Assembly: GCA_021789605.1 (NCBI GenBank)
Contig: JAJYJI010000002.1
Location: forward strand, 62,001-126,000
From: a bacterium
GTDB taxonomy: Bacteria > SZUA-79 > Acidulodesulfobacterales > Acidulodesulfobacteraceae
DNA: 64,000 nt
Direction: 5' to 3'
A program made the position numbers and the translations under genes. Positions 21,749-49,072 of this stretch are shown here, in pieces (positions within the stretch are counted from its first letter, which is position 1; every line of letters starts with the position of its first letter). Below the pieces are notes generated by a model, which was not told the origin of the DNA, did no database searches, and saw only the letters and a list, made by a program, of their open reading frames with translations.

Positions 21749-24442
21749 TTACCTTTCATTGAAAATTTTCCCCTTAAGCATTTCGGCGCTTTGCTCCCAT
21801 GTAAGCCATTTTATATCACCCGATTTCGGCTCTTCGCCTTTCCCGTATAATTTAAGCCGGTTAATTACCGCGCCGGCTAAATCTACCGGTCTTAATCCGT
21901 CGAAGTAATATACGGATTCTCCGGCGATTTCTTTAAATACCGGAATATTTCTGGCAATAACGGGCAGGTTATAACGGGCAGCCTCTATTAAAGGCAGTCC
22001 GAAACCCTCGCCTTCGCTTGCGGCGATTAAGCACGAACTTGCTTTGTATATTTTGTCCAGATATTCGTCGCTTATACCCTTAAGCCAAAATAAACGGACG
22101 CCTAATTCTTTGTGCTTTTTAATTTTCCTGACGACTTCTTCCGTCATCCATCCTTCTTTCCCGACGAAAACAAGCTTTGCGTCTAAACCTCGCTTCCATA
22201 AATACTCAAAAGCTTTAAGCGTCTGCAAATGCCCCTTTCGCGGTTCTATAGTCCCGACCGATAAAAAAACGGCGGAATTTCCGGCGCATAAAATGGAGCA
22301 AACATTTTCTTGTTCGGCTTCAGCTTGAGTTTGGGTTTCTTTATTTTTACCGCCTTGATTTACATAGGTGCGTCCTTCGCCCGTCGAGGCATTTACGCTT
22401 GCGCTACTTACGATATCCGCGCCGATGTGAAAATAGCTCACGGTCAAAGAATTTACTTTTTCGGGAAAATTAAGTTTTATCCATTTTTTTACTTCGTTTG
22501 CCGTTGAATTAGATATGCATATTAAGGAATTGGAAACTTCGACGGTTGCCGTCAGCCATTCCTTCATAATGCCGAAAATATTTTTAGGCCACCATTCCGG
22601 GTTCGTAACCGGCAGGATATCGTATATTATCGAATATATTTCTATTCCGTGAATATTGTATTCGTAAAGTATGTTTTTTGCGGCGGGCATCAAATCCGGC
22701 GCTAAGTCCAAACACAAAAATATGTCGCCCGACAAGGGCTCTATGACGTTTTCGTTTTTTGTTTCGTTCTCTTTTGCGCCGTCTCCCGCCGTATGGAACT
22801 TCCGCATAAAATTATTCGCGTAGCGAAAAGACTTTCCGTCGAAATATACCGCTTTAACCGCATAACCCTCCGGAGGATTTTTAAGTAAATTTATCAATAT
22901 ATTTCTTACAACCCTTTGAATTCCGGTTTTAGCGTCTCTTCTAGCAAGCTCGGAAACGTCCGCGAAAAACTCTTTTTGCTTTCGGCGGCAATAATTAGCG
23001 TTGTTTTTGTTTATACAAATTGCGGCGTTTAATAAATTTAAATTCAGTTCATGCCGCGGCATTTTTCTGCTTGCATGTTTGCTTATCGGCACGATTGCAT
23101 TTATAGACGCAATAGAACCGATAAGTTTATGGTAAGAACTTTTACAATAGTCTTCGGCATCATTTTCTTTATGCCCGGAAACCGTTTTTTTGTTAAACGT
23201 TAATTCTAGCGCATCTACCGCTTTTTTTGCCGTAATATCCCATGAAAAATCTTTAGACCTTTCTTTTCCGTAACGCTTCATATCCGATAAAAATTTTTTA
23301 TCGGAAAGCGCCTTAGACATGGCTTCGGAAACAGATAATGCGTTTGAAGGGTCGAACAGCGCGTCTTTCCTGTCTAATATTTCCGGTATGCTAGAAGTAT
23401 CCGACGCGATAACGGGAGCGCCGCAATTCATCGCCTCCAGAATCGGCAGCCCGAAACCCTCGTAAAGCGAGGGGAAAACAAAAAGCTCCGTATTTTTATA
23501 AAGGGCGGTCAGTTCGTCGTCTTGAACGTATCCGGTAAATATTACGTTTTTTATCCCTATCTTATTTGCCCGTATTTTTTTTATCAGCTTTCTTTTAATG
23601 TCTTCCGGTATGGAACTTGCGATAACCATGGAATATTCCGCGCGTATTTTTTTCGGAAGCAGGGCATAGGCATCGATAAGCGTTTCGACGTTTTTACGGC
23701 TGTCGAAGCCGCCGGGAGCATACATTATATATTTACGCCCTATATTAAAACGGCTTAATATATAGTCGCGGCTTTCTTCGCTTTTTTGCGCCCCGCCGGA
23801 CGTATCGTCCGCGCAATAAAAAAACTTCTCGTCAACAGCTGCCGATATATTTACTACCGAGTTTTTATCTAATTCAAGTTCTTTTACCGCCTCGTCCATG
23901 GAATACCCGGAAATAGCCATCAGCAAATTGGCTTTTTTCAGGTGTTCTATTTTGCCGTAATACCATTTTTTATAATAAGGGTCGCATAGATAAGCGTCTT
24001 TATGGATTAAAGGTATAACGTCGTAAAGAATAACCGCGGTAGGAACGTAAAAATCGCCGCCGGGTTTAGGAACCGAAGTAACTATATCGTCCCCCCATCC
24101 TTCAAAAAGCGAAGCGATAACTAATGCGTCCGGCTTAACAAGGGCTATGGCTTGTTCACGTATTAATTCGGCGGCGCGCGTACGCCAGGCGTTTAAGCCG
24201 TTCATCTCCGCTACCGGTCCGGGAACGGAAAAAACTTTTATGTTATTTTCGGGAATAAGCCCTTTAAACGCGCTGCGTATTTCGGGAACAGTTCCGGGAA
24301 AACGGTCGCTTAAAAAAATAAATATTTCATGCCTGTCCGCCGCAGTCCTTGCTATCGCCAAAGCTATGGATTTGGAGTACCTTCCTATTCCGCGGAATCT
24401 GCTTTCGCCCTGTACCGCCTGAAGGTCTATCGCTATTTTCAT
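21749..24442 (-). CDS. Two-domain glycosyltransferase (GT4 + TGIQRVVRN-type GT4)
   Basis: N-domain GIGRYSKSIA...FPSLYEGFGLPILEAMNCGAPVIASDTSSIPEI; C-domain KTGIQRVVRNILINL, FLSVGTIEPRKGHLQTLKAFEYLWKRG, EGEGFGLPLIEAARYNLPVIARNIPVFKEI. Confidence 0.9.
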   Translation of the reverse strand: MKIAIDLQAVQGESRFRGIGRYSKSIALAIARTAADRHEIFIFLSDRFPGTVPEIRSAFKGLIPENNIKVFSVPGPVAEMNGLNAWRTRAAELIREQAIALVKPDALVIASLFEGWGDDIVTSVPKPGGDFYVPTAVILYDVIPLIHKDAYLCDPYYKKWYYGKIEHLKKANLLMAISGYSMDEAVKELELDKNSVVNISAAVDEKFFYCADDTSGGAQKSEESRDYILSRFNIGRKYIMYAPGGFDSRKNVETLIDAYALLPKKIRAEYSMVIASSIPEDIKRKLIKKIRANKIGIKNVIFTGYVQDDELTALYKNTELFVFPSLYEGFGLPILEAMNCGAPVIASDTSSIPEILDRKDALFDPSNALSVSEAMSKALSDKKFLSDMKRYGKERSKDFSWDITAKKAVDALELTFNKKTVSGHKENDAEDYCKSSYHKLIGSIASINAIVPISKHASRKMPRHELNLNLLNAAICINKNNANYCRRKQKEFFADVSELARRDAKTGIQRVVRNILINLLKNPPEGYAVKAVYFDGKSFRYANNFMRKFHTAGDGAKENETKNENVIEPLSGDIFLCLDLAPDLMPAAKNILYEYNIHGIEIYSIIYDILPVTNPEWWPKNIFGIMKEWLTATVEVSNSLICISNSTANEVKKWIKLNFPEKVNSLTVSYFHIGADIVSSASVNASTGEGRTYVNQGGKNKETQTQAEAEQENVCSILCAGNSAVFLSVGTIEPRKGHLQTLKAFEYLWKRGLDAKLVFVGKEGWMTEEVVRKIKKHKELGVRLFWLKGISDEYLDKIYKASSCLIAASEGEGFGLPLIEAARYNLPVIARNIPVFKEIAGESVYYFDGLRPVDLAGAVINRLKLYGKGEEPKSGDIKWLTWEQSAEMLKGKIFNER

Positions 24443-24487: not shown

Positions 24488-24787
24488 TCATTTTTTTTCG
24501 GATATTTTAACTGCTTCGCATAAGTCTTTATAAATCTTTGAAACTTCAGGAGGAAGTTCCGATAATTTTAAATCTATCTTAATCTTTTCTCGGGCTTCGT
24601 CTATATCCCCATGGATAAGCCCGTAATTTACCGTAAATCTTCTTAACCTGTTTTTGACAAAAGGAAATGAATTTAATGTTTTTTTTGCGTAATAGGTTGC
24701 CGCAGAATTTTTTAAAATAATCTTGGCTATGTAAAAAAGCGGCTTTTTTAATGCTTTTTTTATTAAATTTTTAATCTTTTTTAGCAT
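24488..24787 (-). CDS. Small basic hypothetical protein (99 aa) in glycan operon
   Basis: ORF abutting the next GT gene (1-nt overlap), same strand. Confidence 0.55.
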   Translation of the reverse strand: MLKKIKNLIKKALKKPLFYIAKIILKNSAATYYAKKTLNSFPFVKNRLRRFTVNYGLIHGDIDEAREKIKIDLKLSELPPEVSKIYKDLCEAVKISEKK

Positions 24788-27246
24788 TAAATATATTCGT
24801 CCAGTCTGTTTTTAAAATTTTTTGCTATCGATTTCCAGCTAAAATGCGATTCCACATATTTTCTTGCGTTATAGACATACGCATCGTCGCGACTGTTTAA
24901 ATATTCTGAAATAGCGTCGGGAAAATTCTCCATATCGGTCAAGCCTATCATTTTGTTTTCCGGTATTCCGGCTGAGTCGCTTATCCCGCTTATAACGCCC
25001 CTTGCCCCGAAATAACTGGATAGCAAAGGAATGCCCGCCGCCATATAATCCAAAATTTTTAAGTTCGTTCCCGAACCTGAAATAATAGGATTAAGGGCAA
25101 GGTCGGCAAAAGATAAATAAAAAAATTTTTCGTCGTCTTCGACGAGTCCGGTAAATCCTACATTATCGGGACAAAGAGCAAGCTCTGCTTTATCCGTCTT
25201 ATAGTGGTCGCCGACGCCTCCAAGGACTATGAATCTGTATTCAGGAAGTTTTCGGGCGGCGGCGATTATTTTATCCGCCGCTTCTATATTAGGCTTATGC
25301 CAGCTGCCCATGAAAAATATAATTTTTTCATTTTCTAACCCCAATTTTTTCTTTATTTCTTTTCTGACTGCCGGAGGCGTAAAAATTACGGAATCTAAAT
25401 CGACCCCGTTGGGAACTATCAAGACTTTATCCGGTTTTAAGTTTAAGCCGTATATTTTTTGCATATTGCCGGCGTCTTCCATGGAACAAAACGTAATTAA
25501 ATCAGAATAAAGGCAGGCTTCTTTTTCAGTTTCAAACAGATAATTTGCAATTTTTTCGCTTTCGTTATTTTTCTCCATCATCTGCTTTTTAAGCTCGTAC
25601 TCTACGTTATGAGACTCGTATATTAAAAAATTCCTTTCGTGTCTTTTCGCCAAAGATAACAAAGGGTAAGTATATGGATGGGATGCAATTAAAACCTCGG
25701 ATTCCAGCGAATATTTTTTTGCGGTATCGACATATTCCGATATATCCTTATAAAAATACAGCATTGCCAAATCCGTCGCGAATATGCCGATTTTATCCTG
25801 CATCTTTTTTTCTTTTTCTTCAAATTTCTTGGATTTTGGGATTCTGTTCTCGAAAAGGTTTGGGGCTATCTCCTTTCTAAAACCGGTATCGTTGCTGCCG
25901 GTCAAAGATATTATTTCTATATCGTAATATCTGGCAAGCTCCTTATATAAATAAAAAATCCTGTTCTGTCCCCCTCCCATAGGCGGGTAGATAGGATAAG
26001 TGGTCGAAACGGTAATTTTTTTTCTTTTATTTTTTTGATTATTATTAGTTTTAATTATATTATAACTATGCTTATAATTATTTTGTTCTTTAGCGGTCGC
26101 AATGCCGGTAACGCCAAACAATGACTGGACCGTATTTTCCCATGTTATAAGTTCTGCTTTCTTTTTAGCCCGGGTCCCCATTTCACGCATTAAATCAGTA
26201 TTTAAAGCGGCTTTTTCTATAAGCCCTTTTAAAGCATCTGCAGCGGGTTCGCAGACGAAGCCTGTTTTGCCGTCCTCTACGAATTCAAGCACGCCGCCGG
26301 AATCCTTAAAAGTAATCACCGGCTTTCCGCACATCATTGCTTCTAATGTTACAAGCCCGTAATCTTCTTCATAAGGTATGAAAATTACCGCCAAAGCGCC
26401 TGCGTAATAATCCGTTAAGTCCTTATCCCCTACGTAACCTACCAGTTCTATCCTCGGGTCGCCTTTCGAAATTTCTTTTAATTCATCCATAAGCGGTCCG
26501 GTTCCTACTATTTTTAAAGGAACATTTACGCCGGTTTTAAGGTATGCCTCGATAATTGTCCTTATTCGCTTTGCTTCGTCGAGCCTGCTTACCGCCAAAA
26601 AATATCCGTAGTTCCCTTCCTTGAAATTTTCTAAATTTGAAGGGGGATATATAACGTTTACGGTTGCGGACGGAGGAAAATACTCTTTTCTCTCCGCTAC
26701 GGTTTTAGATATTGCGGAAAAACTCTTAACTCCCTCCATGGCTTGTTTGTCGAAAAAACCTATTATTTTTTTAATAAATGGTCCCGGAAACGCGTAAGCT
26801 TCTTTAGGTATTTTTTTATCTTCCTCAAGCTCGAAAAGCATTTCAAACAAAACGCCGGGGGAAGACAGCGGCTTTTCCATATAATTTAAAATATTCTTAA
26901 TTTTTCCGGCTTTAAAATCCGCGGGGATGTGAATTTTTGACTGGTCGTACATATCGTATAACCCTCTCAGACAGTGCAGCATGTATATATGATGATTTTC
27001 GTGCTTTATCATCCATGCCGGATACTTGCAAGTTATAACCGAGTCGAAATGACTTGCGTCAAATGCGTAAAATTTATAATACGCGCGGATTAAATTCCAA
27101 AAATTGTCTTCCTTGACCGGAATTTTAATAAGTTCGCACTGGTGGGTCGTATTTTTGTTTATATAGCTTTGAATGCCCCAGTAAAATTTTTCGGCTCCTC
27201 CGACGGTAAAAGGAATGGGGCTAGGCGCTATCAGTCCTATTCTCAT
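24787..27246 (-). CDS. Two-domain GT4-type glycosyltransferase
   Basis: N-domain VGGAEKFYWGIQSYI...IPYEEDYGLVTLEAMMCGKPVITFKDSGG; C-domain YPPMGGGQNRIFYLYKELARYYDIEIISLTG...GSGTNLKILDYMAAGIPLLSS. Confidence 0.9.
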   Translation of the reverse strand: MRIGLIAPSPIPFTVGGAEKFYWGIQSYINKNTTHQCELIKIPVKEDNFWNLIRAYYKFYAFDASHFDSVITCKYPAWMIKHENHHIYMLHCLRGLYDMYDQSKIHIPADFKAGKIKNILNYMEKPLSSPGVLFEMLFELEEDKKIPKEAYAFPGPFIKKIIGFFDKQAMEGVKSFSAISKTVAERKEYFPPSATVNVIYPPSNLENFKEGNYGYFLAVSRLDEAKRIRTIIEAYLKTGVNVPLKIVGTGPLMDELKEISKGDPRIELVGYVGDKDLTDYYAGALAVIFIPYEEDYGLVTLEAMMCGKPVITFKDSGGVLEFVEDGKTGFVCEPAADALKGLIEKAALNTDLMREMGTRAKKKAELITWENTVQSLFGVTGIATAKEQNNYKHSYNIIKTNNNQKNKRKKITVSTTYPIYPPMGGGQNRIFYLYKELARYYDIEIISLTGSNDTGFRKEIAPNLFENRIPKSKKFEEKEKKMQDKIGIFATDLAMLYFYKDISEYVDTAKKYSLESEVLIASHPYTYPLLSLAKRHERNFLIYESHNVEYELKKQMMEKNNESEKIANYLFETEKEACLYSDLITFCSMEDAGNMQKIYGLNLKPDKVLIVPNGVDLDSVIFTPPAVRKEIKKKLGLENEKIIFFMGSWHKPNIEAADKIIAAARKLPEYRFIVLGGVGDHYKTDKAELALCPDNVGFTGLVEDDEKFFYLSFADLALNPIISGSGTNLKILDYMAAGIPLLSSYFGARGVISGISDSAGIPENKMIGLTDMENFPDAISEYLNSRDDAYVYNARKYVESHFSWKSIAKNFKNRLDEYI

Positions 27247-28544
27247 TAAGGTTTTACTCCTATTACGGAATAATCCATTTCATTGTAAAAATTTTCTTTT
27301 ATAAACCTGTTGTTTTCGTTTTCTTCGGCTACTTCGTGAAAATCCGAATATTTATTCATTCTTTTAACCGTAACGTTAATAAAACCCCTGTCTTCGGCTA
27401 TAAATTCCATGGTAGCGGGAACTAAAGGCTTGATATGGGAAGGGTCGATGTAAAAAGTGCATGCGCCTACCATAAGATTTTCAGGATTCGGCGTTTCAAA
27501 AATAATTATGCCTCCAGATTTTATGACTCTGAACGATTCGTCCAGAACGGCGACTGCATTTTTAAAAGGCATATGTTCCAGTATGTGAAAACCCGTTACG
27601 GCGGACAGCGACGACGGCGGAAGGCTTCTCATATATTCCAATGCGTTTGCCTTCGATGCTTCAAGACTAAAACCGGCGCATAACTCCACCATGACTTCGT
27701 TCGTATCTACTCCCGAAGCCTTAATTCCTTTTTCGCCGAGCAGTTCAAGCCATTCCCCCCTTCCGCATCCCAAATCTAAAACCGGTGCGCTTCCGGTTTT
27801 ATCTAAAGCCTCCATTATATAGGGTAGATAGGCTTTCTGCCTGTTTTTAATGTCCTGCCTCGTGCCCCTGAACTTATCTTCAAACGTCAGATACAGGGCA
27901 TCCAGAATACTGTCGTCTTCTTTTATTATAGCTTGGGCGGCAGAAGCGTAATTACCTCCGACATCGCGCATCTTGCGGAATTCCTCCAAAAGCCTCATAA
28001 TCCTTCTTTGCATATCGACGATATTTGTTTTATGCGCGCCTATGTTCCTAAAAATATCCTTGACGGCGGCATCGGATTTATCGGTTTTGTTTATTAATAC
28101 GCCTATTTCCGAATCCATGGAGTCCATCCTGCCGATGATGTTTCGTACGTTTTCATCTAATAGATGCCGTATGTTTTTTGTTTCGGCTAAAAGTTCCAGC
28201 CTTGACAAAGACAGTTCCTGCAGTACGTCTAATATCGCGTTGCTAACGTTTCTCTGCTCCCTGAACAAAATTTCATAAAATTTAAGGATAATTTTTTGCA
28301 ATATTTTGCTTTTATTTATCGGAAACCTGTTTAACGCGTCAGGTATTTTCGTTCTAATCCGCGACTTGGCCCTAGAGTCGTTAATAGACAAATTAATACG
28401 GTTCGTTTTATCGGCGCCGCCGTCCGCGCCGCCGATATCATTGGCGAGATTATCCGCAGCGTGATTATCCGCCCTGTTCTGTTCCGCCACGGTTCGCACT
28501 TTTTGCATAATTTCCCCTACGCTTGCGCCGTTAATTTTATCCAT
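27246..28544 (-). CDS. Class I SAM-dependent methyltransferase with N-terminal coiled-coil-like region
   Basis: PVLDLGCGRGEWLELLGEKGIKASGVDTNEVMV, FHILEHMPF, HIKPLVPATMEFIAEDRGF; long helical region upstream. Confidence 0.87.
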   Translation of the reverse strand: MDKINGASVGEIMQKVRTVAEQNRADNHAADNLANDIGGADGGADKTNRINLSINDSRAKSRIRTKIPDALNRFPINKSKILQKIILKFYEILFREQRNVSNAILDVLQELSLSRLELLAETKNIRHLLDENVRNIIGRMDSMDSEIGVLINKTDKSDAAVKDIFRNIGAHKTNIVDMQRRIMRLLEEFRKMRDVGGNYASAAQAIIKEDDSILDALYLTFEDKFRGTRQDIKNRQKAYLPYIMEALDKTGSAPVLDLGCGRGEWLELLGEKGIKASGVDTNEVMVELCAGFSLEASKANALEYMRSLPPSSLSAVTGFHILEHMPFKNAVAVLDESFRVIKSGGIIIFETPNPENLMVGACTFYIDPSHIKPLVPATMEFIAEDRGFINVTVKRMNKYSDFHEVAEENENNRFIKENFYNEMDYSVIGVKP

Positions 28545-28602: not shown

Positions 28603-30882
28603 TTAAAAATATCCGAAACTCCTCAGCTTATCCATTATGGAGTCTTTTTCGGAAGACCTCCCCGAGCGTTCCGGTCCGTTCATATCCGACTTGCCGGTGC
28701 ACGGCTCGCAGTCTAAACTGCGGTATCCTTCGTCGTATAAGCCGCAATAAGGTATGCCTTCGGCTCTTATGAAATTCCATATGTCTTTCTCGGTAAATTG
28801 CAGTATGGGATGCACTCTGGTATGCGTCGGATTATCCCTTTCTGAAAAAAAAGTTTCGTCCGACCTTGCCGGATGCTCGTCTCTTCTTACCCCTGTCATT
28901 AAAGCTTTTAATTTTAAATCCGTAACCGCTTTTTTTAGCGGAACGGTTTTAAACTTCAAACAGCATTCTTCCTTGCTCAAATCTGCCTTAATATTCATTA
29001 GGGAGTCTTTTTCCGAAAAAACCCGCAGGTCCAAAGCCCATTCGTTTTTAATTCTGCCGATAAAAGCGTAAATTTCTTTAAACTCTAGACCGGTATCTAT
29101 ATTGATAACCTTAAAAGGAATAATCCCGTTAAACGCTTTTTTTATCAGATAAAGCAAAACCGTGGAATCCTTTCCGCCGGTAAACCCAACGCCTATGTCT
29201 TCGCCGAACCTTCTGCGGGCTTCCTTAATCGTTTCCAAAGCCGAATCTATTTTGCGGCTTAATCCGCTTGCGTTTCCACCGCCTGCATTTTCTTCTTTTG
29301 CCGCCGCTTCTTTTTCTGCCGCCGCCGCGGTATTTATTATGCCGGACGGGATATCGTAGCCGTCGCCGAAGCCGCTCTCGTCATCCTGAAATACGTTTTC
29401 GGACTCGGCGCAGTCCTTTTCGAGTTTATCCAGCGTTTTTACGTAATCCGTCCTTTCCTGTTCCGAAACGTCCAGCGGCGTGTTTTCGAGAGGGTCGTTT
29501 ATCAAATCGTATTTATAAACGTAATCCGGAATTTTTAATCCGGCTTTTTCCATGCTGCCCCAAAACTCGTCAAAAATATCTTTCCTCGAATACTTTTGCG
29601 AACCGAGCATATTTAATTTTGCGGACAGCCCCTCTTTGTCCTCGAAGCGCAGCAGGATATTCCTGTATAGCGACTTCACGTAATCCGCGTCGCTGTTTTT
29701 AAAACCCTGCGTCCTTGCGTCGAAGGACTCGTAAGAGCCACCGTTTTCAATGTAATTTCCTGAAAAAACAATCTTTTTATCCTTAAACCTCAAACATCTT
29801 TGAAATAAAAAATACTCGTCCGAAGAATCGCGCTTCGCAATCACGGGTCTGCCGTCTTCGCCCGACAGGGCGCCTTCGCCTCCCAAATAATTATTTTGCT
29901 TCCATACTTCGGAATAAACGTAATCCCTGTCGTGAAAATAAAGTCCGTCTATATCTCCGCAAACAAATGATGGATTTATGCCCGCCTGCGATAAAACCGA
30001 AGGAAAAATATCTGTTATGGAAACCATGTCCTTCCGCGACCCCGCCTTCATATTAGGACCGTGAAAAATAAGCGGAACGTGAGTTACTTCGTCGTATAGT
30101 TCCCCCGCATGGGAAAAATAATCGGGGTCGTCAATTGAAACGCGTCCTTCGCCGTGGTCGGACGTAATAGCGTAAACGTTGTCGTCGTCGAAAAAACTAT
30201 ACTTTTTTAAAAAACCGGCGGTCGTTTTAAATCTCCCGCCGTCGAATTTATTGACACCTTCTATATAAGGCTCGAAAAGTATTTTTACGTCGCTTTTAAT
30301 TTTGCCGGCAAATTCTCGCCAAATTTTATGCGGTTCTTTTTCTTTTAAATTTAAATCGTAATCTTTATCCGCCTTTTCGATAAATTTAAAATAATCGCCG
30401 TTATAGTTATTGTCGGGCGGACATTCTGAAAACAAGTAAGGCTCGTGGACGTCGAAAAAATGGATAAAAAGAAAAACTTTTTCGTTTTTCATCCCGTCCA
30501 GCAGTTCAAAAAGCTGCGCGTCGTTTCTGGTTATTTTATAGTCGAAGCCCCTTGCAAGCCCGAGCGGCTCGAACAGTTCTGGAATATCCGTGCTGAAAAC
30601 CGTTTTATACCCGCTCTTTTTAAATATTTCGGCTAAGGTAACGGACTTATCGCTTAATTTTTTGTAATAGTAAGGCCTTACTCCGTGATGCTGCGGCAAA
30701 AGACCGGTGAACATCGACGCATGCGCGGATGTAGTATAGGTATTGGTGCTGAAGCAATTTTTAAAAACGGCGGCTTTTTCGGAAATTTCGTTTATTACGG
30801 GCGTATTTACTTTATTTCCCGCTCCTATGCAGTCGTATCTTAAATTGTCTATGGAAATCAGCAATACTTTATCGCACGGCAT
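28603..30882 (-). CDS. Fusion: alkaline-phosphatase-superfamily sulfatase-like domain + CysD/CysH (PAPS reductase family) PP-loop domain
   Basis: LLISIDNLRYD, TYTTSAHASMFTG, TSDHGEGR, THVPLIFHGP; C-term GFTGGKDSTVLLYLIKKAF, CCLKFKTVPLKK, TGVRRDE, GYRSLDCEPCT, ERSGR...GYF. Confidence 0.88.
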   Translation of the reverse strand: MPCDKVLLISIDNLRYDCIGAGNKVNTPVINEISEKAAVFKNCFSTNTYTTSAHASMFTGLLPQHHGVRPYYYKKLSDKSVTLAEIFKKSGYKTVFSTDIPELFEPLGLARGFDYKITRNDAQLFELLDGMKNEKVFLFIHFFDVHEPYLFSECPPDNNYNGDYFKFIEKADKDYDLNLKEKEPHKIWREFAGKIKSDVKILFEPYIEGVNKFDGGRFKTTAGFLKKYSFFDDDNVYAITSDHGEGRVSIDDPDYFSHAGELYDEVTHVPLIFHGPNMKAGSRKDMVSITDIFPSVLSQAGINPSFVCGDIDGLYFHDRDYVYSEVWKQNNYLGGEGALSGEDGRPVIAKRDSSDEYFLFQRCLRFKDKKIVFSGNYIENGGSYESFDARTQGFKNSDADYVKSLYRNILLRFEDKEGLSAKLNMLGSQKYSRKDIFDEFWGSMEKAGLKIPDYVYKYDLINDPLENTPLDVSEQERTDYVKTLDKLEKDCAESENVFQDDESGFGDGYDIPSGIINTAAAAEKEAAAKEENAGGGNASGLSRKIDSALETIKEARRRFGEDIGVGFTGGKDSTVLLYLIKKAFNGIIPFKVINIDTGLEFKEIYAFIGRIKNEWALDLRVFSEKDSLMNIKADLSKEECCLKFKTVPLKKAVTDLKLKALMTGVRRDEHPARSDETFFSERDNPTHTRVHPILQFTEKDIWNFIRAEGIPYCGLYDEGYRSLDCEPCTGKSDMNGPERSGRSSEKDSIMDKLRSFGYF

Positions 30883-30932
30883 CTAATTACGCAACCCTCC
30901 CTAATCCCTATCCTTGCTTATTCTTAAAAATC

Positions 30933-33365
30933 TTAAAAATATCCCAGCTGCCTCAATTTTGCCATGGCGGCTTCCTTGTCCTCGGAACGCCCCGAGCGTT
31001 CGGCTACTCCTTCCTTAGGCGTTTTGGAAGTGCACGGGGCGCAGTCTATCGACCTGTAGCCCTCGTTATAAAGCGGGCAAAACGGCAGGTTATTAAGCTT
31101 AATATAGTCCCATATGTCTTTTTCGGTAAAGTGCAGAATGGGGTGGACCCTGAAGTGGTGAGGGTCCTTTCTTTTGGAAAAATAGGCTTCGTTGGCGCGG
31201 CTTTCCGTTTCGTCGCGCCTTATTCCCGTCATCATGGCTTTAAGATGCAGGTCTTTTATGGACATTTTGAGCGGAGAGGTTTTAAGCGTAAGGCAGCAGT
31301 CGGCTTTGTCCTTGGCTATCGGGTAATTTGCTTTGAGGGCTTCTTTATTGGAATACGTAAGTAGCTCGAAACCCCAATCCCGCTTTAATTTTTCTATAAA
31401 ATCCTTTATTTCTTTAAACTCGGCGGACGTATCTATCGTTATCACCTTAAAAGGGATTTTCCCGTCGAAGGCTTTGCGCACGAGGTCTAACATTACCGAG
31501 GAATCCTTGCCGCCGGTAAAAGCTATGCCGATAGAGTCGCCGAACCTCTCGCGGGCTTCTTTTATGATTTCGGTGCTTAATGCTATTTTTTGATGTAAAA
31601 GTTCGATAGTTAAAGCGTCTCCGGCGGCGTCGCCCACGGCGTTAAATTCCGGCTGGATTATCGCCGCTCCCCCCGTCCGCGCGCCGGCGTTCTTTTCGTC
31701 TTTTGCGGCTCCTGCCCCGTTTGCCGCGACTGGCGCCGGAGCGGGAATGTTTTCGTCGAACAGGTTTTCGGTTACGACCGCCCCGCTCTCGATTTTGTTT
31801 AAAATCTCGACGTATTTCTGAGTGCTTGTTAACGCCATATTTAAAGGAAGCGGCATTTCCTCTAAGGGGTCTGCGGCAAGGTCGTAATAATAGTTTTTAA
31901 CCCTGCGGTATATGTCCGACGACGTAAGGTTTTTATATATGTCCGTTCTAGTCGCCGTTTTTGCCTTTAACGCGTTTAAGAGGGTAAAATATTCCTGCCT
32001 GCTTATCCTTTTTCTCATCACGAAATTAAACATCGCTATGACGAAATCTTCTTCGGACAGTTTTACGTTTTCTATTATTTTTTTGGCTTCTTCGTGGGGG
32101 ATGTTTTCCGGTATGAAAAGATACTTTTTATCTGCCGTCCTTATAGCCCTTTGCGACAGAAAATATCTGTCTTTAGCGGAAGCCCCGTTATTCTGCCTGT
32201 TATATTCGGGAGCGGCAAACTGCATTATTTCGTTATACATATTCTGCGTGCAAAATTCGCTGTAGCAGTATTCCCTTTCGTCGAAGAGCGAAACGCCGTC
32301 TATGCCCGAAAGCCCCAAGGTTTCGCCCGCGCCGGAAGATTGAGACGGCGGCTGTGCCGGACCGGTTTTATTATCATGCGATACGATATCCGCATCGAGC
32401 CCTGAAAGCGTTATCAGGGTCTTAAACACGTCCACTATGGACGCAATCTTGCCGTAAGCCTTTTTTTCGACCTGCGGAGCGTGAAGTATCAACGGTACGT
32501 GCGTTACTTCGTCGTAAAGTTCCCCCATATGACCGAAAACGGGCTGATCGAAAAGGGTTATCCTGCCCTCGCCGTGGTCGGCTAAAATGGAATATATGGC
32601 TTCTTCGTCAAAATACCCCAGCGATTTAAGGGAATTATAAATCAGCCTGAAACGCCCCTTGTCGAATTTGTTAATGCCGTATATGTAAGCGGGCAGCATT
32701 ACGTGCTCCCAAAAATTAACCTTTGACGAAAAATTATTCCAAAGCGCAAAAGGGTCGTTGTTAGTCATTGGAATTTTAAACAAAAGCGACATTTTTTTTA
32801 TGAAGTCGAAATAATCGTCGTTGTAATGATTTTCGTTGTAATTCTGCGAATATATATAAGGTTCGTGCGCGTCGAAAAGATGCATGAAGCAAAAAACCTT
32901 TTCGTTTTTTAACCCTTCAAGCTGCTTATACAGCTCGCTTATATCGCCGGCAAAAACGTAATCGAATCCTTTTGTCAGCCCGATGGGATGAAACAGCTCT
33001 ATGACGTCGGAATATAAAACGGTCTTGTAGCCGTTTTTCTTATAAACGTCGGCAAGGGTAACGCAGTCTTTGTTCAGTTTTTTATAGAAAAAAGGTCTTA
33101 CGCCGTGCCTTTGCTGGTATAATCCGGTAAATAAAGAGGCATGTGCGGCTGTGGTATAAGTCGAGGTCGAAAAGAAATTGGTAAAAACGGCGGAATTTGA
33201 AGCAATCTCGTCCAGAGTCGGAGTGTCCGGCAATTTTTCGAGGTAAAACTGCTTCAGGTGGGGCTTGTCTTCTACGTAGCTTGCGCAGTCGTATCTTAAA
33301 TTGTCTATTGAAATAAGTAAAACTTTTGAGTTTTTAGCATTTGCTCCGTTCTCTACGTTTTCCAT
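30933..33365 (-). CDS. Second fusion: sulfatase-like domain + CysD/CysH PP-loop domain
   Basis: LLISIDNLRYD, TYTTAAHASLFTG, ADHGEGR, THVPLILHAP; C-term AFTGGKDSSVMLDLVRKAF, CCLTLKTSPLK, TGIRRDE, GYRSIDCAPCT, ERSGR...LGYF. Confidence 0.88.
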   Translation of the reverse strand: MENVENGANAKNSKVLLISIDNLRYDCASYVEDKPHLKQFYLEKLPDTPTLDEIASNSAVFTNFFSTSTYTTAAHASLFTGLYQQRHGVRPFFYKKLNKDCVTLADVYKKNGYKTVLYSDVIELFHPIGLTKGFDYVFAGDISELYKQLEGLKNEKVFCFMHLFDAHEPYIYSQNYNENHYNDDYFDFIKKMSLLFKIPMTNNDPFALWNNFSSKVNFWEHVMLPAYIYGINKFDKGRFRLIYNSLKSLGYFDEEAIYSILADHGEGRITLFDQPVFGHMGELYDEVTHVPLILHAPQVEKKAYGKIASIVDVFKTLITLSGLDADIVSHDNKTGPAQPPSQSSGAGETLGLSGIDGVSLFDEREYCYSEFCTQNMYNEIMQFAAPEYNRQNNGASAKDRYFLSQRAIRTADKKYLFIPENIPHEEAKKIIENVKLSEEDFVIAMFNFVMRKRISRQEYFTLLNALKAKTATRTDIYKNLTSSDIYRRVKNYYYDLAADPLEEMPLPLNMALTSTQKYVEILNKIESGAVVTENLFDENIPAPAPVAANGAGAAKDEKNAGARTGGAAIIQPEFNAVGDAAGDALTIELLHQKIALSTEIIKEARERFGDSIGIAFTGGKDSSVMLDLVRKAFDGKIPFKVITIDTSAEFKEIKDFIEKLKRDWGFELLTYSNKEALKANYPIAKDKADCCLTLKTSPLKMSIKDLHLKAMMTGIRRDETESRANEAYFSKRKDPHHFRVHPILHFTEKDIWDYIKLNNLPFCPLYNEGYRSIDCAPCTSKTPKEGVAERSGRSEDKEAAMAKLRQLGYF

Positions 33366-33424: not shown

Positions 33425-35551
33425 TTATGAAAATAAAATAAAATCCTTAAGGTTCTTTTCGAACCTGCGCCAAGCCTGCGAACTGCCTTTGTAAATCTTT
33501 TTCCTGACCTGCGCCGCGCTAGCCGTCCTGACGGCGCGCTTGTTCTTTTCAAACTCCAGGCAGGCGTCCTCCCATTCAAGACCGCAGTAATCTATCAGTT
33601 TTCTGGTTTCTTCCCCGAAGTTTTCGGTAAGGAGTTCGTAGTTTAAATTGTAAATGCGTCCGGGGAACAGGTTTTCCCAGAACGCCATAAGGTCTTCGTA
33701 TAATTTATAATATTCGGCTATATCGGACAAGTCGTTTGAAAACCCTAGCCCTTTAGCCGGAAAATACCTGCTGAAAACAGACCATGCGACAGCCGTCCTG
33801 TCCCTCGTCATATTTATTATTTTTAAATTAGGCATTATGTGAGCCAAAAAGCCTATAAAACGAAAATTTAAAGGCATCTTGTCGGTAACGAAACCGTATT
33901 TTGGAGGCACGCCGAATTTATTATCGTTGCCGTTCACATCGTTGTCGGCGTATTCCGGTTGCTTCTTAATTTCTTTTAAATATTCCGCGGTAATTGCGCC
34001 GCAAGCCCGATAAACGTCCTGTGCGGGCGGCGGAACGTTAAAATAGAGGTTTGCCGCTAAGACGCCTAAGGTTTCCAGTTCTCCAGCACCGAAAACGCCG
34101 CTATGCGACGCTAAAATCTGCTCCGCAAGGCTCGTTCCGGAGCGCGGCATTCCGACTATCAGTATCGGCATAGGCGAAATTTCGTTTAAATTTAGAGGGG
34201 GCAGCTTCGACCTGATTTCATCCGTTAGAGAAGTACCGCCGAAAGAGGACTTAATAACGGAGAACAGCTTGCGGTCGGTTTCTATGGAATATCCGAGTTC
34301 CTTTTTCCGCAATGCGTTTCCTTCGAGATAAAGGTTAAAAGATTCGTCGTATTCCCCGACGTCTTCAAGCGTCTTGGCAAGCGCAAAGCATACCTGTATC
34401 TTGTCCTCTATTTTTTTAACGGTTTTACTTAAGCTTTTGAGCCGTTCAATTTGCGGGTCGCCGTGCGTAAATTTTTTAAGGGTACTCAAGTTCCTGTAAC
34501 ATTCGGCGTAATCGGGTTTTAATTCCAGCGCCTTGGAATAATACGCTTGGGCTTCTTCAAGCCTGCCCGTGTCGTTAAACACGCCGCCTAAGTTGTTGTG
34601 CGCTTCGGCGTAAGACGGGTTAAGCTCTATGGCTTTCCTGAAGTTAATTTCGGCTTCTTCGAGCCTGCCTTTATCGCTTAATATTCCGCCAAGGTTGTTA
34701 TAGGCTTCGGCGTAAGACGGGTTAAGCTCTATGGCTTTCCTGAAGTTGTTTTCTGCTTCTTCGAGCCTGCCTAATTCATAAAGCGTATTTCCTAAATTAT
34801 TATAAGCCTCGAAATAATCAGGTTTAAGTTCCAGCGCTTTTTTATAAGAGGATTCGGCTTCTTGAAGCCTTTTTAAATTTCTGTAAGTAATGCCTATGTT
34901 GTTGTAGGATGCGCAAAAATCCGGCTTCAATTCTATCGCCTTTTTAAGATTTTTTTCGGCTTCTTCAAATCTTTCAAAATCGTTATAGACGCTACCTAAA
35001 TTACTGTAACATTCCGCATAATCCGGCTTAAGCTCGAGCGCTTTTAAAAACACCGATTCGGCTTCGGGTAGCTTTCCGAGATAATAAAGCGCGCTGCCGA
35101 GGTTGCTGTAAGCTTCGACATAATCCGGCTTAAGCTCTATTGCTTTTTTGTAACTTTGGACGGCTTCCTCAAACTTTTTGCTTAAGTAAAAAACATTCCC
35201 TGCGTCGAGAAATTTTGACGCTTCGGAGGAGGAGTCGGCGGTCGCGGCTTCGGATTCGAAAATGGGAGAAATTGAGGAAGCGGTAGATGTGGAGGCGGAA
35301 ATAGCGTCTTTAACCGCTTTAAGGCTTACGAGATACTGCGGCACGCCGGGATTTATATTCGCGGCGTTTTGAAGAAAAATTACGGCTTCTTTAAGTTTGC
35401 CTGCATTCATCAATAAAAGCCCGAGGTTGTGGTTTGCATCGGACTGCGTTGGAACTGTCGCTATTATCGCCCTGTATAAATTCTCTGCTTCGGCTAGTTT
35501 TCCCTCTTTGTGAAAATTAACCGCCTTAACTAATGCTTCCTGAATTTTCAT
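33425..35551 (-). CDS. TPR-repeat sulfotransferase
   Basis: Multiple TPRs (AIELKPDYVEAYSNLGSALYYLGKLPEAE...) then PILIVGMPRSGTSLAEQILASHSGVFGAGELETLG (PAPS-binding P-loop-like) and NMTRDRTAVAWSVFSRYF. Confidence 0.92.
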   Translation of the reverse strand: MKIQEALVKAVNFHKEGKLAEAENLYRAIIATVPTQSDANHNLGLLLMNAGKLKEAVIFLQNAANINPGVPQYLVSLKAVKDAISASTSTASSISPIFESEAATADSSSEASKFLDAGNVFYLSKKFEEAVQSYKKAIELKPDYVEAYSNLGSALYYLGKLPEAESVFLKALELKPDYAECYSNLGSVYNDFERFEEAEKNLKKAIELKPDFCASYNNIGITYRNLKRLQEAESSYKKALELKPDYFEAYNNLGNTLYELGRLEEAENNFRKAIELNPSYAEAYNNLGGILSDKGRLEEAEINFRKAIELNPSYAEAHNNLGGVFNDTGRLEEAQAYYSKALELKPDYAECYRNLSTLKKFTHGDPQIERLKSLSKTVKKIEDKIQVCFALAKTLEDVGEYDESFNLYLEGNALRKKELGYSIETDRKLFSVIKSSFGGTSLTDEIRSKLPPLNLNEISPMPILIVGMPRSGTSLAEQILASHSGVFGAGELETLGVLAANLYFNVPPPAQDVYRACGAITAEYLKEIKKQPEYADNDVNGNDNKFGVPPKYGFVTDKMPLNFRFIGFLAHIMPNLKIINMTRDRTAVAWSVFSRYFPAKGLGFSNDLSDIAEYYKLYEDLMAFWENLFPGRIYNLNYELLTENFGEETRKLIDYCGLEWEDACLEFEKNKRAVRTASAAQVRKKIYKGSSQAWRRFEKNLKDFILFS

Positions 35552-44421: not shown

Positions 44422-45798
44422 TCACTTTACGAAAGCCTGTGAAATTTTATATAAAAGCGGATTTAAAAAGGATGACATAAGCGTTCTGGAACCGGTTTCA
44501 ACCGTTACCTGCGCCGGCATGCCGGCTTTTAATTCCAGCTTGCGCCGCGCAAGGGCTTCGAGACCTCTGCGGCTTATCTTTATCTTGCACACGTAAAAAG
44601 GCATATGGCTGACCGGGTTCGCTATGCTTGCCGCGGACACGTATATGACTTTTCCGGAGAGGACTGGGACGTCCGCCACGTCGAAAGCCGGAAACCTTAG
44701 GTCCGCCTTTAATCCCTTATGTATGCGGGCGATAAACTGGACGGGAACGTCACCTTTGACTATAAGGCTTTGGTTTAAGGGGAGGATATCGACTATCGGC
44801 TGTCCCGGCAGCACCGCCCCTCCGACGGTTTTATTATATATTTTTACTATCGTGCCGTCAACCCCCGAAGATACCACGGTATTTTTATACTGGCTTAAAG
44901 CCGAGCGGTACTGCCGTTTTAAGGCGTAAACCTTGCCTTGCACGCCGTTAAGCTCCGCGTTGACTTTTCTTGAAAAATCGTTTTTAAGATTATAAAGCTT
45001 CAGCTCGTTTTGGGTTAAAGTGCCCTGCATACGCGATATATTTCCTTCTTCCTCGTTGAGCTTGCCCTCAAGTCCCTGAATATCCGCCTGCATCTGCATA
45101 ACCTTAGACCTCGGATAGTATCCTTCCGACGCGAGCCTGTCCAGCGGTCCTACTTCTTTCTTTGCCAGCGTTATCTGGTTTTCGGTAGTTTTTTTCATTT
45201 CTTTTTCGCTTACGAGATAACCTTTAATAGACGAGACTGCGGATTTAAAAATATTTTTCTGGGCTTCGTAGTTTGCCGTTTCCGCGATAAACAATTTTTC
45301 CTGAACCGCCATGGCTGCTTTTGCCTGATTAGAATTTTTAAAAGCCGATAGCGCGGTGGAAAATTTTATTTGGGACGCGCCGGATTCTTCGGCAAGAAGC
45401 CTCGAATACATTGCAAGGTAGGTAATATAGCGGCTTTTTATTTGCGCGAGGTTCGACTTCTGGGTAGAACCGTCTAAAAACATTATTGGCTGTTTTTTCT
45501 TTACCGTATCTCCCTCTCTGGCTGCTATTTTTTTAATCGTTCCTCCGTACCTGCTTGTTATTATGTCTTCGTGCGAAGAGGCGGAAACCGTTCCCGGAAT
45601 GCCGATGCCGCTGACCATGGGGGCTAATGACGCCCATATTATAAAGCCGAAAAATCCGAATATGAGCGCGGCGAACCCGAAAATAACGATTGGGCGCATA
45701 TTCGTATGGAGCCGGACTTCTTCTTCGCCTAAAACCTCGGTTTCGGTTCCTTTAATCCATTCGAGCAGTTTTGCCGTTTGTTTATCAAGTAATTTCAT
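44422..45798 (-). CDS. Type I secretion periplasmic adaptor (HlyD/PrtE family)
   Basis: PMVSGIGIPGTVSASSHEDIITSRYGGTIKKIAAREGDTVKKKQPIMFLD; GTIVKIYNKTVGGAVLPGQPIVDILPLNQSLIVKGDVP. Confidence 0.93.
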   Translation of the reverse strand: MKLLDKQTAKLLEWIKGTETEVLGEEEVRLHTNMRPIVIFGFAALIFGFFGFIIWASLAPMVSGIGIPGTVSASSHEDIITSRYGGTIKKIAAREGDTVKKKQPIMFLDGSTQKSNLAQIKSRYITYLAMYSRLLAEESGASQIKFSTALSAFKNSNQAKAAMAVQEKLFIAETANYEAQKNIFKSAVSSIKGYLVSEKEMKKTTENQITLAKKEVGPLDRLASEGYYPRSKVMQMQADIQGLEGKLNEEEGNISRMQGTLTQNELKLYNLKNDFSRKVNAELNGVQGKVYALKRQYRSALSQYKNTVVSSGVDGTIVKIYNKTVGGAVLPGQPIVDILPLNQSLIVKGDVPVQFIARIHKGLKADLRFPAFDVADVPVLSGKVIYVSAASIANPVSHMPFYVCKIKISRRGLEALARRKLELKAGMPAQVTVETGSRTLMSSFLNPLLYKISQAFVK

Positions 45799-45828
45799 AT
45801 GGGTAATGTTGCTCCTTAATATTTATTC

Positions 45829-47661
45829 TTAAACTTCGTTTAAGCCGGCGCCTAGACTGCCGCCGCCTTCGCCTGTTTCGGCGGTATTCTCCCGTTCCTG
45901 TTCCTGTTCCTGACCCGGTTTCTGCACCGCCTGAGCCTGCTGCTGAGCCTGCTGCGAGGCTATTATGGCGTTAAGAACGTCGGTTCTCGTGCCGTACATC
46001 TGCACGGTCCCGTTGGATATTACGAGTATCTTGTCCACGACGGAAAGTATGTGGTTCCTGTGCGTTATTATAAAGACGGTGGATTTTTTTTCCTTTAGCT
46101 TTGAAAGCGTATAAAGAAGGGCGTGTCCGCCGATATCGTCCAAGTTGGAATCAGGCTCGTCCAACACAACGAGCGCGGGGAAGCCGTATATCGCCCTTGC
46201 TAAAGCTACCCTCTGTTTTTGTCCGCCGGACAACACGACTCCGCCTTCGCCTATAAACGTATCGTAACCGTTAGGCAGGGTTAAGATTAGTTCGTGGATT
46301 CCGACGGTTTTTGCGGCTTCGATTATTTTTTCGGAATTTATTTCGCCGAAGCGGGCGATATTTTCCGCTATGGTGCCGTGCAAAAGTTCGATGTCCTGCG
46401 GCAGGTAGCCTATGTGGTCGCCCAACGCGTCCTTATCCCACGTAAAAATTTCCGCTCCGTCTAACCGCACGCTGCCGGAAGCCGGGGGCCAGACGCCGGT
46501 AATAAGGCGGGACAGGGTGGATTTACCCGAACCGCTTGGACCGATTATCGCGACCATGTCGCCTTTTTCAGCGATAAAATTTATGTTCTTAAGGACCTGC
46601 ATATTGGAATTTGGAGGAATCGCGTAAAGTCCGCCCACTGCTATTTTGCCTTCGGGGGCGGGAAGAGGCATCCCTTTTTCCCTTTCGGGGAATGAGGTGA
46701 AAAGAGAAGAGAGCCTTTTATAAGAATCGCGGGCGGAAACGAAACTTTTCCAGCCGCTCATGGCAAGGTCTATGGGGGAAAGCGCCCTTCCTATTAATAT
46801 CGCGGAAGCGACCATCGCGCCGGCGGTAATGATGTTGCCGTTTATTACGAAATACGCGCCTACCGCGTATATTAATGACTGAAACGCGTACCTTAAAAAC
46901 TTCGACAAGGCTGAAACGTGTCCCGTTTTTTCGCTTGCGCCGGACTGGAGCGCGACGAATTTTAGGTGTTTGGGATACCAGTGTTTCCTGACGTTGGAAA
47001 GCATTCCCATTGACTCTATGACGTCCGCGTTCCTGAAATTTATTGCGGCAAAGCCTGAAGCGCTATGATAAGCGTTATTTGAAGCGGTTATTTTTTTTTT
47101 GCCCGCGGCTTCGGTCAAAAAAGCCATAAAGAAAAGCACTAAGGCGGCGAATAAGGCGTATAAGCCTATAACCCAGTATATTAATCCTATGACTATAATA
47201 TAGATAGGCACCCAAGGAACGTCGAAAAAAGCCAAGGCACCCGTGCCGGTCAAAAACTGGCGGATACTGGTAAAGTCGTTAAAAACCTGAGAAGAATCGG
47301 TGCTTCCGGTGCGGAGGCACTTTTCAAAGGCTACCTGAAAAAGCCTTGTATTGACGCGCTTGTCCATGTTGTTGCCTATGCGTATTAAAAGCTGCGTCCT
47401 CGTCCATTCAAAAAGCCCCATGAGTATCATCATAAAAAGCATTATTACCGTAACTACTACAAGAGTAGTATTGTTCCTGCTGGAAAGAACGGCGTCGTAA
47501 ATGAGAAGCATATAAAGCGACGGAACGAGCATGAGGAGGTTTATGATAAAACTGAATAAGCCGACTATGTAAAAATCTTTTTTGAACAAAGTTAAGATTT
47601 TTAACAGTTCCGGTTTTTCCTGCGCGGAAGCGAAGGGCTGTTTCCTTCTTAAAAAAGCCAT
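45829..47661 (-). CDS. Type I secretion ABC transporter (PrtD-like permease/ATPase)
   Basis: TM domain + IIGPSGSGKSTLSRLITGVWPPASGSVRLDGAEIFTWDKDALGDHIGYLPQDIELLHGTIAENIARF; LSGGQKQRVALARAIYG. Confidence 0.94.
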   Translation of the reverse strand: MAFLRRKQPFASAQEKPELLKILTLFKKDFYIVGLFSFIINLLMLVPSLYMLLIYDAVLSSRNNTTLVVVTVIMLFMMILMGLFEWTRTQLLIRIGNNMDKRVNTRLFQVAFEKCLRTGSTDSSQVFNDFTSIRQFLTGTGALAFFDVPWVPIYIIVIGLIYWVIGLYALFAALVLFFMAFLTEAAGKKKITASNNAYHSASGFAAINFRNADVIESMGMLSNVRKHWYPKHLKFVALQSGASEKTGHVSALSKFLRYAFQSLIYAVGAYFVINGNIITAGAMVASAILIGRALSPIDLAMSGWKSFVSARDSYKRLSSLFTSFPEREKGMPLPAPEGKIAVGGLYAIPPNSNMQVLKNINFIAEKGDMVAIIGPSGSGKSTLSRLITGVWPPASGSVRLDGAEIFTWDKDALGDHIGYLPQDIELLHGTIAENIARFGEINSEKIIEAAKTVGIHELILTLPNGYDTFIGEGGVVLSGGQKQRVALARAIYGFPALVVLDEPDSNLDDIGGHALLYTLSKLKEKKSTVFIITHRNHILSVVDKILVISNGTVQMYGTRTDVLNAIIASQQAQQQAQAVQKPGQEQEQERENTAETGEGGGSLGAGLNEV

Positions 47662-47692
47662 ATGAATTGCACCTATGAATAAATTTAAAATT

Positions 47693-49072
47693 TTATTTAA
47701 GCCATTCGTTTATTTTATATAAATAATGTTTTGAAAGCACTCCGGCGTTGAAATAAAAGTTTAAAATGCCGAGCGCGTATTCGTATTTTGCCTTAAGCAG
47801 GTTTATTTTCGCGTCGTAAAGCGCCTGAACCGCGTTAAGGACGTCGGTTTCCGTGGCTATGCCCGATTTAAAGCCGAGTTCGTTTCCCTTAAGGGAAACG
47901 CGGGCGGATTTAAGGGCAAGCTCAAGCATTTTAATTTTTACTATGGACCCCTTGACGTCCGCATAGGACTGCCTTATTTTCCTGCCGTTCCTGTTAAGCT
48001 GTTCGATGTATTTCTCCTGCGCGCGGGAGGCGAGGTTTGAAGCCTTAAATGTCTTTGCGTAGCCGTAACCGCCGTTAAAAATAGGAACGCTAAGCTGAAA
48101 TCCCACGTCGTAATATTTTAAGGGCGGGGTCTGGATATACTGCTGGGTGTTGGTGGCGGAATATCCGGCTACAAAGGTCAAAGACGGAAGATGGGCGGCT
48201 ATGTTTTTTCTTTCGCTTTCCTTGTAATAGTCGCGGTTATACCTGTAATATTCGAGCATGGGGTTGCGCTCGGCTCCTACTTTTACCCAGTATTTGACGT
48301 TAGACGGGCGCGGAACGTAAAGGGGAATGTGCCGCTTCAGCGGCTCTAAGTTTCTGCCGCTTGCGCCCGTTGCGTTTTTAAACTTGGCATACGCGTTTTC
48401 CAGTCCGTTTTTGGCGCCGACGAGATGCGACAGGACAGAGTAATATTTTGCGCGTGCTGCGTAAACGTCGGTAATAGTGCCCGCTCCCGCGCCGTAAAGT
48501 TTTTTGGCCTGCTCTAGTTCGCGGCGCACGGCTTTTTCTTGCGATTTTAAGGCTTTTATGTAATCCCTAGCCGACAGTACGCCTAAGTAAGCTTTGGCGA
48601 CCGAGATTATAAGGTTCTGCTTCTGCGACCTGAATCTTGCGTCTCCTATCGAAGCCCGCGTTTTATACTCCCCGTACATAAAAAATCTCCTGAAGCTTAT
48701 GATGGGCTGGGTCAGGTTAACGCCGTTGTTTCTGGCGTCGTAGCTGAGGTAATACGGCGGCGGATTTATAAAATCGTATCTTAAGTAGCTAAAGGAAGCG
48801 TTTATGCGCGGAAGCAAAACAGAAAGCCCTTCCCATGCGAGGTCGTCCGAGGCTTTTTTGCCGTAAAGGGACGCCCTGTAGGCATGGTTATGCTTTAAGG
48901 CGTCGTTATAAGCCTGAATGAGGCTTACGGACGGGAAATTGGATTTAAAGGAAACGGAAACTGCAGCGGCGGAAACGGCGGAACCTGCGGTAAAGGCGGC
49001 AAATATAAATATAAAAACGCCCGCTATAAAACCAAAACCTATAAAATTTGTTTTTAAACCGCTTTTAAGCAA
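47693..49072 (-). CDS. TolC-family outer membrane efflux/secretion protein
   Basis: SLIQAYNDALKHNHAYRASLYGKKA; VAKAYLGVLSARDYIKALKSQEKAVRRELEQAKKLYGAGAGTITDVYAARAKY. Confidence 0.9.
   Translation of the reverse strand: MLKSGLKTNFIGFGFIAGVFIFIFAAFTAGSAVSAAAVSVSFKSNFPSVSLIQAYNDALKHNHAYRASLYGKKASDDLAWEGLSVLLPRINASFSYLRYDFINPPPYYLSYDARNNGVNLTQPIISFRRFFMYGEYKTRASIGDARFRSQKQNLIISVAKAYLGVLSARDYIKALKSQEKAVRRELEQAKKLYGAGAGTITDVYAARAKYYSVLSHLVGAKNGLENAYAKFKNATGASGRNLEPLKRHIPLYVPRPSNVKYWVKVGAERNPMLEYYRYNRDYYKESERKNIAAHLPSLTFVAGYSATNTQQYIQTPPLKYYDVGFQLSVPIFNGGYGYAKTFKASNLASRAQEKYIEQLNRNGRKIRQSYADVKGSIVKIKMLELALKSARVSLKGNELGFKSGIATETDVLNAVQALYDAKINLLKAKYEYALGILNFYFNAGVLSKHYLYKINEWLK

Follow-up and report, generated by a model that had tools for sequence, protein, structure and literature searches.

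Described relatives and the present locus

Glycan sulfation is usually taught in terms of PAPS and PAPS-dependent sulfotransferases. An archaeon provided the first demonstration, in 2025, of glycan sulfotransferases with the alkaline phosphatase (AP) fold (Zaretsky et al., 2025; PMC11980604). There, gene deletion and heterologous expression in Haloferax volcanii established that the sulfatase-like, AP-superfamily proteins Agl30 and Agl31 (VNG1056C and VNG1057C), from an S-layer glycosylation cluster, add sulfate to the N-glycan on the S-layer of Halobacterium salinarum; the portions of that report drawn on here do not address the sulfate donor and describe no PP-loop domain in either protein.

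Three other described families bear on the proteins considered below. Formylglycine sulfatases (PF00884, S1) combine the sulfatase fold and a DHGE metal-site motif with the formylglycine motif C/S-x-P/A-x-R; CysD (PDB 1zun) is a PP-loop protein that has the GTPase CysN as its usual partner; and the assimilatory APS reductase CysH (2goy) carries CC...CxPC cysteines of the [4Fe-4S] type together with a catalytic cysteine in the motif ECGLH.

The window (the whole 64,000-nucleotide stretch of DNA analysed) belongs to a 2.0-Mb MAG (G000) of an acid-mine bacterium from the small phylum Candidatus Acidulodesulfobacterota. Two adjacent genes in it encode fusions of an AP-superfamily domain with a C-terminal CysD-like PP-loop domain. 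Like Agl30 and Agl31, these are AP-superfamily proteins from a surface glycosylation cluster, a likeness of family and gene context rather than of compared sequences. Each part is known, but no description was found of the two united in a single enzyme or operon that would sulfate glycans: a search, outside of which most subscription journals lay, returned no paper combining PF01507 with PF00884 or naming the pairing of an AP protein with a CysD-like one. The first-pass annotation had suggested that the fusion may be an undescribed sulfate or phosphate transfer enzyme for cell-surface glycans, and undescribed it is in the literature searched; the fusion is not rare, however, and recurs as a two-gene module.

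Two adjacent fusion proteins

Both fusion genes (Table 1) begin with ATG, and 50 bp separate them. The Sulfatase profile PF00884 (E=1.4e-20 in fusion 1, 4.4e-21 in fusion 2) and the PAPS_reduct profile PF01507 (E=3.9e-41 and 5e-45, respectively) match both proteins far beyond the curated cut-offs, in agreement with the earlier account of two adjacent paralogs, 759 and 810 residues long, that share one architecture. The chain of fusion 1 runs on beyond its PP-loop match to the tail LRSFGYF. As the two proteins are 45% identical, and each clusters in the tree with different orthologs from other genomes, the duplication is old and neither copy is an assembly artefact; a third fusion copy lies on a different contig of G000. 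Indeed, an assembly artefact, already judged unlikely from the shared architecture, or a chance fusion was ruled out by recurrence across the phylum and by a full-length fusion in Desulfovirgula.

Table 1. Features of the fusion locus, with positions counted from the first letter of the window
Feature	Position	Strand	Basis
Fusion 1, AP-superfamily domain and C-terminal CysD-like PP-loop domain, 759 aa	28603..30882	-	ORF; Pfam PF00884 and PF01507
Fusion 1, sulfatase-like AP domain, residues 6-302, Thr50 at the formylglycine position	29977..30867	-	PF00884; motif YTTSAHAS
Fusion 1, DUF4214-like stretch, residues 392-447	29542..29709	-	PF13946, E=8.4e-07
Fusion 1, CysD-like PP-loop domain, residues 566-730, with TGGKDS, CC and CEPC	28693..29187	-	PF01507; alignment
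Fusion 2, architecture as fusion 1, 810 aa	30933..33365	-	ORF; Pfam; AlphaFold2 model
Fusion 2, sulfatase-like AP domain, residues 15-322, Thr71 at the formylglycine position	32400..33323	-	PF00884; alignment with solved sulfatases
Fusion 2, CysD-like PP-loop domain, residues 614-780	31026..31526	-	PF01507; closest solved sequence CysD 1zun
TPR repeats and Sulfotransfer_3 (PAPS-type sulfotransferase family), 59 bp upstream of fusion 2	33425..35551	-	PF13469, E=2e-35
S-layer-like / type I-secreted-like protein, 796 aa	35734..38124	-	resembles proteins beside fusions in L024, L028 and L030
SAM methyltransferase, directly downstream of fusion 1	27246..28544	-	Pfam
Double GT4 glycosyltransferase	24787..27246	-	Pfam
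Double GT4 glycosyltransferase	21749..24442	-	Pfam
Type I secretion system, further upstream of the fusion row	44422..49072	-	Pfam
HlyD	44422-45798	-	Pfam
ABC component of the type I system	45829-47661	-	Pfam
TolC-like OEP	47693-49072	-	Pfam

In an AlphaFold2 model of the 810-residue protein (pLDDT 81.5, pTM 0.66), two domains are predicted, in an arrangement that is unreliable: an AP region extending to about residue 535, a putatively disordered linker (538-582) and then the PP-loop domain, which gave a pLDDT of 90 when modelled alone. The best PDB matches of the whole-chain model in Foldseek are glycan sulfatases. The two window fusions and the Desulfovirgula fusion show no long hydrophobic or signal-like segment, and on this sequence evidence the three proteins are probably cytoplasmic.

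The AP-superfamily domain

The N-terminal domain matches PF00884 above its cut-off, finds sulfatases in Foldseek and retains both the metal ligands and the nucleophile of the AP superfamily. The metal-site residues comprise an Asp near the N-terminus, the DHGE motif common to S1 sulfatases and a later His; D21, T71, D263, H264 and H279 are invariant in an alignment of 12 fusions. Unlike S1 sulfatases, the fusions lack a signal peptide and have Thr in place of the Cys or Ser that becomes formylglycine: Thr71 aligns with this residue of solved sulfatases, Thr occupies the position in all 18 AP sequences aligned, and the C/S-x-P/A-x-R motif is absent from all 17 long fusion proteins in which motifs were checked. 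A classical formylglycine sulfatase was ruled out by the Thr and the missing motif. Thus, from the original label of a sulfatase-like domain, the superfamily fold is retained and the classical sulfatase is discarded. AP enzymes of the Thr type are mostly phosphohydrolases or phosphotransferases.

The PP-loop domain

Several features place the C-terminal domain with CysD. TGGKDS, equivalent to the SGGKDS-type PP-loop motif, is present in 17/17 fusions, the CysD-like motif RxDE..xR..E..FS.R (RRDE..R...E..FS.R in the comparison with 1zun) is kept, and the C-terminal tail M..LR.LGYF equals the M..LR..GYF-type tail of CysD genes. An origin of the LRxLGYF tail from the sulfatase was considered and dropped, since standalone CysD genes end in the same tail. 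In a maximum-likelihood tree, the domain falls on the CysD side, in a clade split from CysH with 100/99 support, yet apart from the CysN-partnered CysD proteins. Among solved chains, CysD 1zun is the closest in sequence. None of the curated NCBIfam cut-offs is reached, and the CysD models come closest (149.8 bits against 195 and 113.6 against 396.6). The domain also differs from CysD in having no CysN partner, in being fused to or paired with an AP-fold protein and in mostly carrying CC and CxPC cysteines.

These four cysteines, found in 17/17 fusions, resemble the cluster-holding cysteines of APS reductase and are jointly missing from three PP-loop copies of Patescibacteria. By contrast with CysH, the catalytic ECGLH cysteine is absent from all 17 fusions and from the unfused members inspected; this absence, together with the Patescibacteria copies lacking all four cysteines, makes a reduction reaction unlikely. 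PAPS reductase (CysH) was ruled out by the missing ECGLH, the CysD-like tail and the tree position. The first-pass assignment to a combined CysD and PAPS reductase family can accordingly be narrowed to its CysD half, on the strength of tree, motifs and tail. In Foldseek, the nearest fold is that of the APS reductase with bound APS (2goy), and CysD has the highest identity (33%) among the hits listed; the sequence and fold relatives also include FAD synthase and FMN adenylyltransferase folds. Because the folds nearest to the domain, APS reductase with APS and CysD, bind APS, the comparison supports a role for this nucleotide.

Fused and separate forms in other genomes

The fusion is old. Far from being a rarity, it represents a recurrent two-gene module in its joined state. 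Within Candidatus Acidulodesulfobacterota, the 810-residue protein is matched in 18 of 30 genomes, spread over two of six genera; many matches are full length, some are partial and a few very short, on broken contigs. A full-length fusion outside the phylum is encoded by Desulfovirgula thermocuniculi (L049). The same architecture occurs in a deltaproteobacterial MAG (L103 9665-11824; L051 9989-12148) with a degenerate PP-loop, TREKET replacing TGGKDS, and without the Fe-S cysteines; this natural dead-domain variant adjoins a second AP-type gene. As separate genes, the two parts are found in Microgenomates and Roizmanbacteria (Patescibacteria), where the PP-loop gene lies just ahead of the sulfatase-like gene (gaps of 4 and 1 bp), in two Bacillota genomes (48 and 16 bp) and, abutting, in many genomes of the phylum of G031, a deltaproteobacterial MAG. 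Among unfused members, the AP partner is either a PF00884 protein or one of the type I phosphodiesterase family PF01663.

Samples of three phyla were searched with a profile built from just the PP-loop domain (A2); only then were the neighbouring genes inspected. An AP-superfamily gene lies within 1.5 kb of 18 of the 22 independent unfused members and of none of 27 ordinary CysH/CysD control loci (Fisher p=6e-10), although these controls differ from the members in glycan-cluster context, and part of the excess could reflect a shared neighbourhood. Ten of the 18 neighbours are co-directional and within 50 bp of the PP-loop gene; 17 of the 18 are robust, the other (L174) being a weak fragment of 22 bits. 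At L171, which is not among the 18, the AP gene is 3.9 kb away. The fusions and abutting pairs argue for a link beyond shared neighbourhood. Both gene types might simply be common in surface-glycan clusters, where chance could bring them together or fuse them with no joint function, and sulfatase-like relatives without a PP-loop partner (L052, L053, L055), along with controls unmatched for cluster type, are what such an account would lead one to expect. It is nonetheless highly improbable given that the parts are fused in more than one lineage, that ten pairs picked without reference to the AP gene abut and are co-directional, and that all 17 fusions conserve the catalytic motifs of each domain.

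Further arrangements were encountered. At L094, L099 and L138, in or near surface-glycan genes, classical CysD and CysN are followed by a PF01663 phosphodiesterase-type gene, a third form of association. In a Patescibacterium (L097 7870-12321), adjoining genes encode a Sat-APS kinase fusion, a CysD-like PP-loop protein and a protein of PF01663. A second PP-loop group, of about 280 aa, ending in GYM and devoid of Fe-S cysteines, stands beside Sat without an AP gene at L095 7820-9894 and L188 7132-10588; its members at L184-L187 are accompanied by an AP gene. A plasmid collection yielded nothing beyond ordinary CysD/CysH relatives and a single weak sulfatase match, and no subfamily member was found in a sample of 400 genomes from the phylum of G033, a MAG labelled Proteobacteria.

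Surface-glycan context

On the minus strand of the window, the S-layer-like protein, the TPR-sulfotransferase, fusion 2, fusion 1, the methyltransferase and the two glycosyltransferases follow one another with short gaps. A methyltransferase recognized by Pfam also lies downstream of the Desulfovirgula fusion. The 796-residue protein has no Pfam or NCBIfam match and, judging from its sequence, is a possible S-layer-like carrier of the glycan. It is one of two large proteins without a Pfam match (35734-38124 and 41042-43450) beside the type I secretion system.

At L024, L028 and L030, fusions are likewise flanked by type I secretion genes, similar exported proteins or both. Elsewhere, the module accompanies glycosyltransferases, ABC polysaccharide transporters, GDP-mannose dehydratase, Bac_transf, flippases and DegT aminotransferases, several of these names outside the window having been read from sequence and only some confirmed by Pfam. 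One copy outside a glycan cluster follows a recR-like gene (L018). Fusions and pairs thus occur in surface glycosylation clusters, with a putative S-layer protein as the exported product. The proposed link to cell-surface glycans is strengthened by these neighbourhoods in several phyla and by the archaeal precedent (PMC11980604).

A proposed route for glycan sulfation

The fusions and pairs are probably one system that puts sulfate on cell-surface sugars. With moderate confidence, we regard them as cytoplasmic surface-glycan sulfation enzymes that bring their own sulfate-activation part. In the route proposed, the CysD-like PP-loop domain would bind ATP and sulfate and form APS without CysN, its usual GTPase partner; where APS is supplied by Sat, the domain would bind it instead. 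The AP-fold domain, with its Thr nucleophile replacing formylglycine, would then take the sulfo group from APS and pass it to a sugar hydroxyl of a glycan bound for the cell surface. In the window, the acceptor is perhaps the glycan of the S-layer-like protein, exported via the nearby type I system. The reaction would release AMP and PPi, and handing the sulfate over directly would drive the unfavourable ATP-sulfurylase step forward. Reaction, donor, acceptor and the handover between the two sites are thus what we infer from the conserved residues and gene contexts. In its most specific form, in which a CysD-like domain working independently of CysN, in a single protein or an abutting gene pair, converts sulfate to APS and hands it directly to an AP-fold sulfotransferase, so that surface glycans would be sulfated free of PAPS in several bacterial phyla including Patescibacteria, the proposal is tentative and falls somewhat short of likely.

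That the AP protein is repeatedly fused to or paired with a CysD-like domain, whose fold is one that binds APS, suggests APS as the donor and makes the donor question directly testable with one protein. Were the proposal true, acidophilic sulfate reducers and ultra-small Patescibacteria would gain a sulfated-surface trait, and 'sulfatase' and 'PAPS reductase' annotations in glycan clusters should not be taken to mean degradation and assimilation.

Several observations count against sulfation. Thr-type AP enzymes act mostly on phosphate, as noted above; the partner is sometimes a PF01663 phosphodiesterase-type protein; and adenylylation of phosphate is chemically possible, as CysD relatives include FMN adenylyltransferase folds. 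The PP-loop domain could therefore adenylylate phosphate or a sugar phosphate in the manner of FAD synthase, a sequence and fold relative, and the AP or phosphodiesterase domain could transfer or trim the product to give a phosphorylated glycan. This chemistry is improbable: the closest solved sequence is CysD, AP-type partners adjoin CysD and CysN (L094, L099, L138) or Sat-CysC (L097), and AP-fold glycan sulfotransferases are demonstrated in Halobacterium (PMC11980604). Three further points weigh on the sulfation model, namely the one fusion with a dead PP-loop, the controls unmatched for glycan-cluster location, and the whole-chain model, with its linker predicted to be disordered and its unreliable domain arrangement.

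Sulfur metabolism of the host genomes

Across the 30 phylum genomes, PF01507 matches above cut-off are confined to the fusions and two further genes, one in G000 that is DndC-like and one, unread, in G003; the remaining weak match in G000 is GMP synthase. Since the family is nearly restricted to the fusions, their PP-loop domain is evidently not for general sulfate assimilation, and no canonical CysH was seen in this PF01507 search, the G003 match being unread. These results bear on a salvage role, in which the AP domain would hydrolyse sulfate esters and the CysD-like domain re-activate the freed sulfate for assimilation. A sulfatase-like fold and physical fusion fit such a role, but with no formylglycine motif, a probable cytoplasmic location (no signal-like or membrane segment), a setting in biosynthetic glycan clusters and no canonical CysH seen in the phylum, it is barely plausible.

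The sulfation model can also be set against the supply of activated sulfate. ATP sulfurylase (Sat) is found in most dissimilatory relatives and in the sampled Bacillota, which counts against the model because these hosts would make APS redundantly. No Sat match was obtained in G000 or in the pair-bearing Patescibacteria G034 and G036, a suggestive absence in mostly draft genomes; in the latter two, no candidate for sulfate activation was seen other than the PP-loop protein. Nor was a convincing APS kinase found in G000, G030, G034, G036, G692 or G716, again mostly drafts: three gave no match and the others gave 20-22 bits in unrelated-looking frames. Among the fusion- or pair-bearing genomes tested, likewise mostly drafts, CysN is convincing in G031 only (310.8 bits); matches elsewhere (≤112 bits) are below cut-off and look like other translation-type GTPases. 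Because Sat, APS kinase and CysN were not found in the genomes concerned, PAPS is unlikely to be the donor there.

Alternatively, the PP-loop domain may make no APS at all and instead bind Sat-made APS as APS reductase does, presenting it to the AP-fold sulfotransferase while the [4Fe-4S]-type cysteines position the sulfate. The closest Foldseek fold, an APS reductase with bound APS, the CC and CxPC cysteines of 17/17 fusions, and the presence of Sat in most relatives, with Sat-CysC adjoining the pair at L097, are consistent with binding alone. We consider it unlikely, however, since the full ATP-binding TGGKDS loop and the CysD-type motifs are conserved, and since G034 and G036 have the pair with no Sat match and with PP-loop genes devoid of the cysteines.

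Two side observations concern G000 itself. The TPR and Sulfotransfer_3 protein encoded at 33425-35551 should need PAPS, yet no convincing APS kinase or Sat was found in the genome. At L004 (G000:C24), a DndC-like PP-loop gene (1363-2463) is followed by a DndB-like gene (2499-3641), possibly part of a DNA phosphorothioation system.
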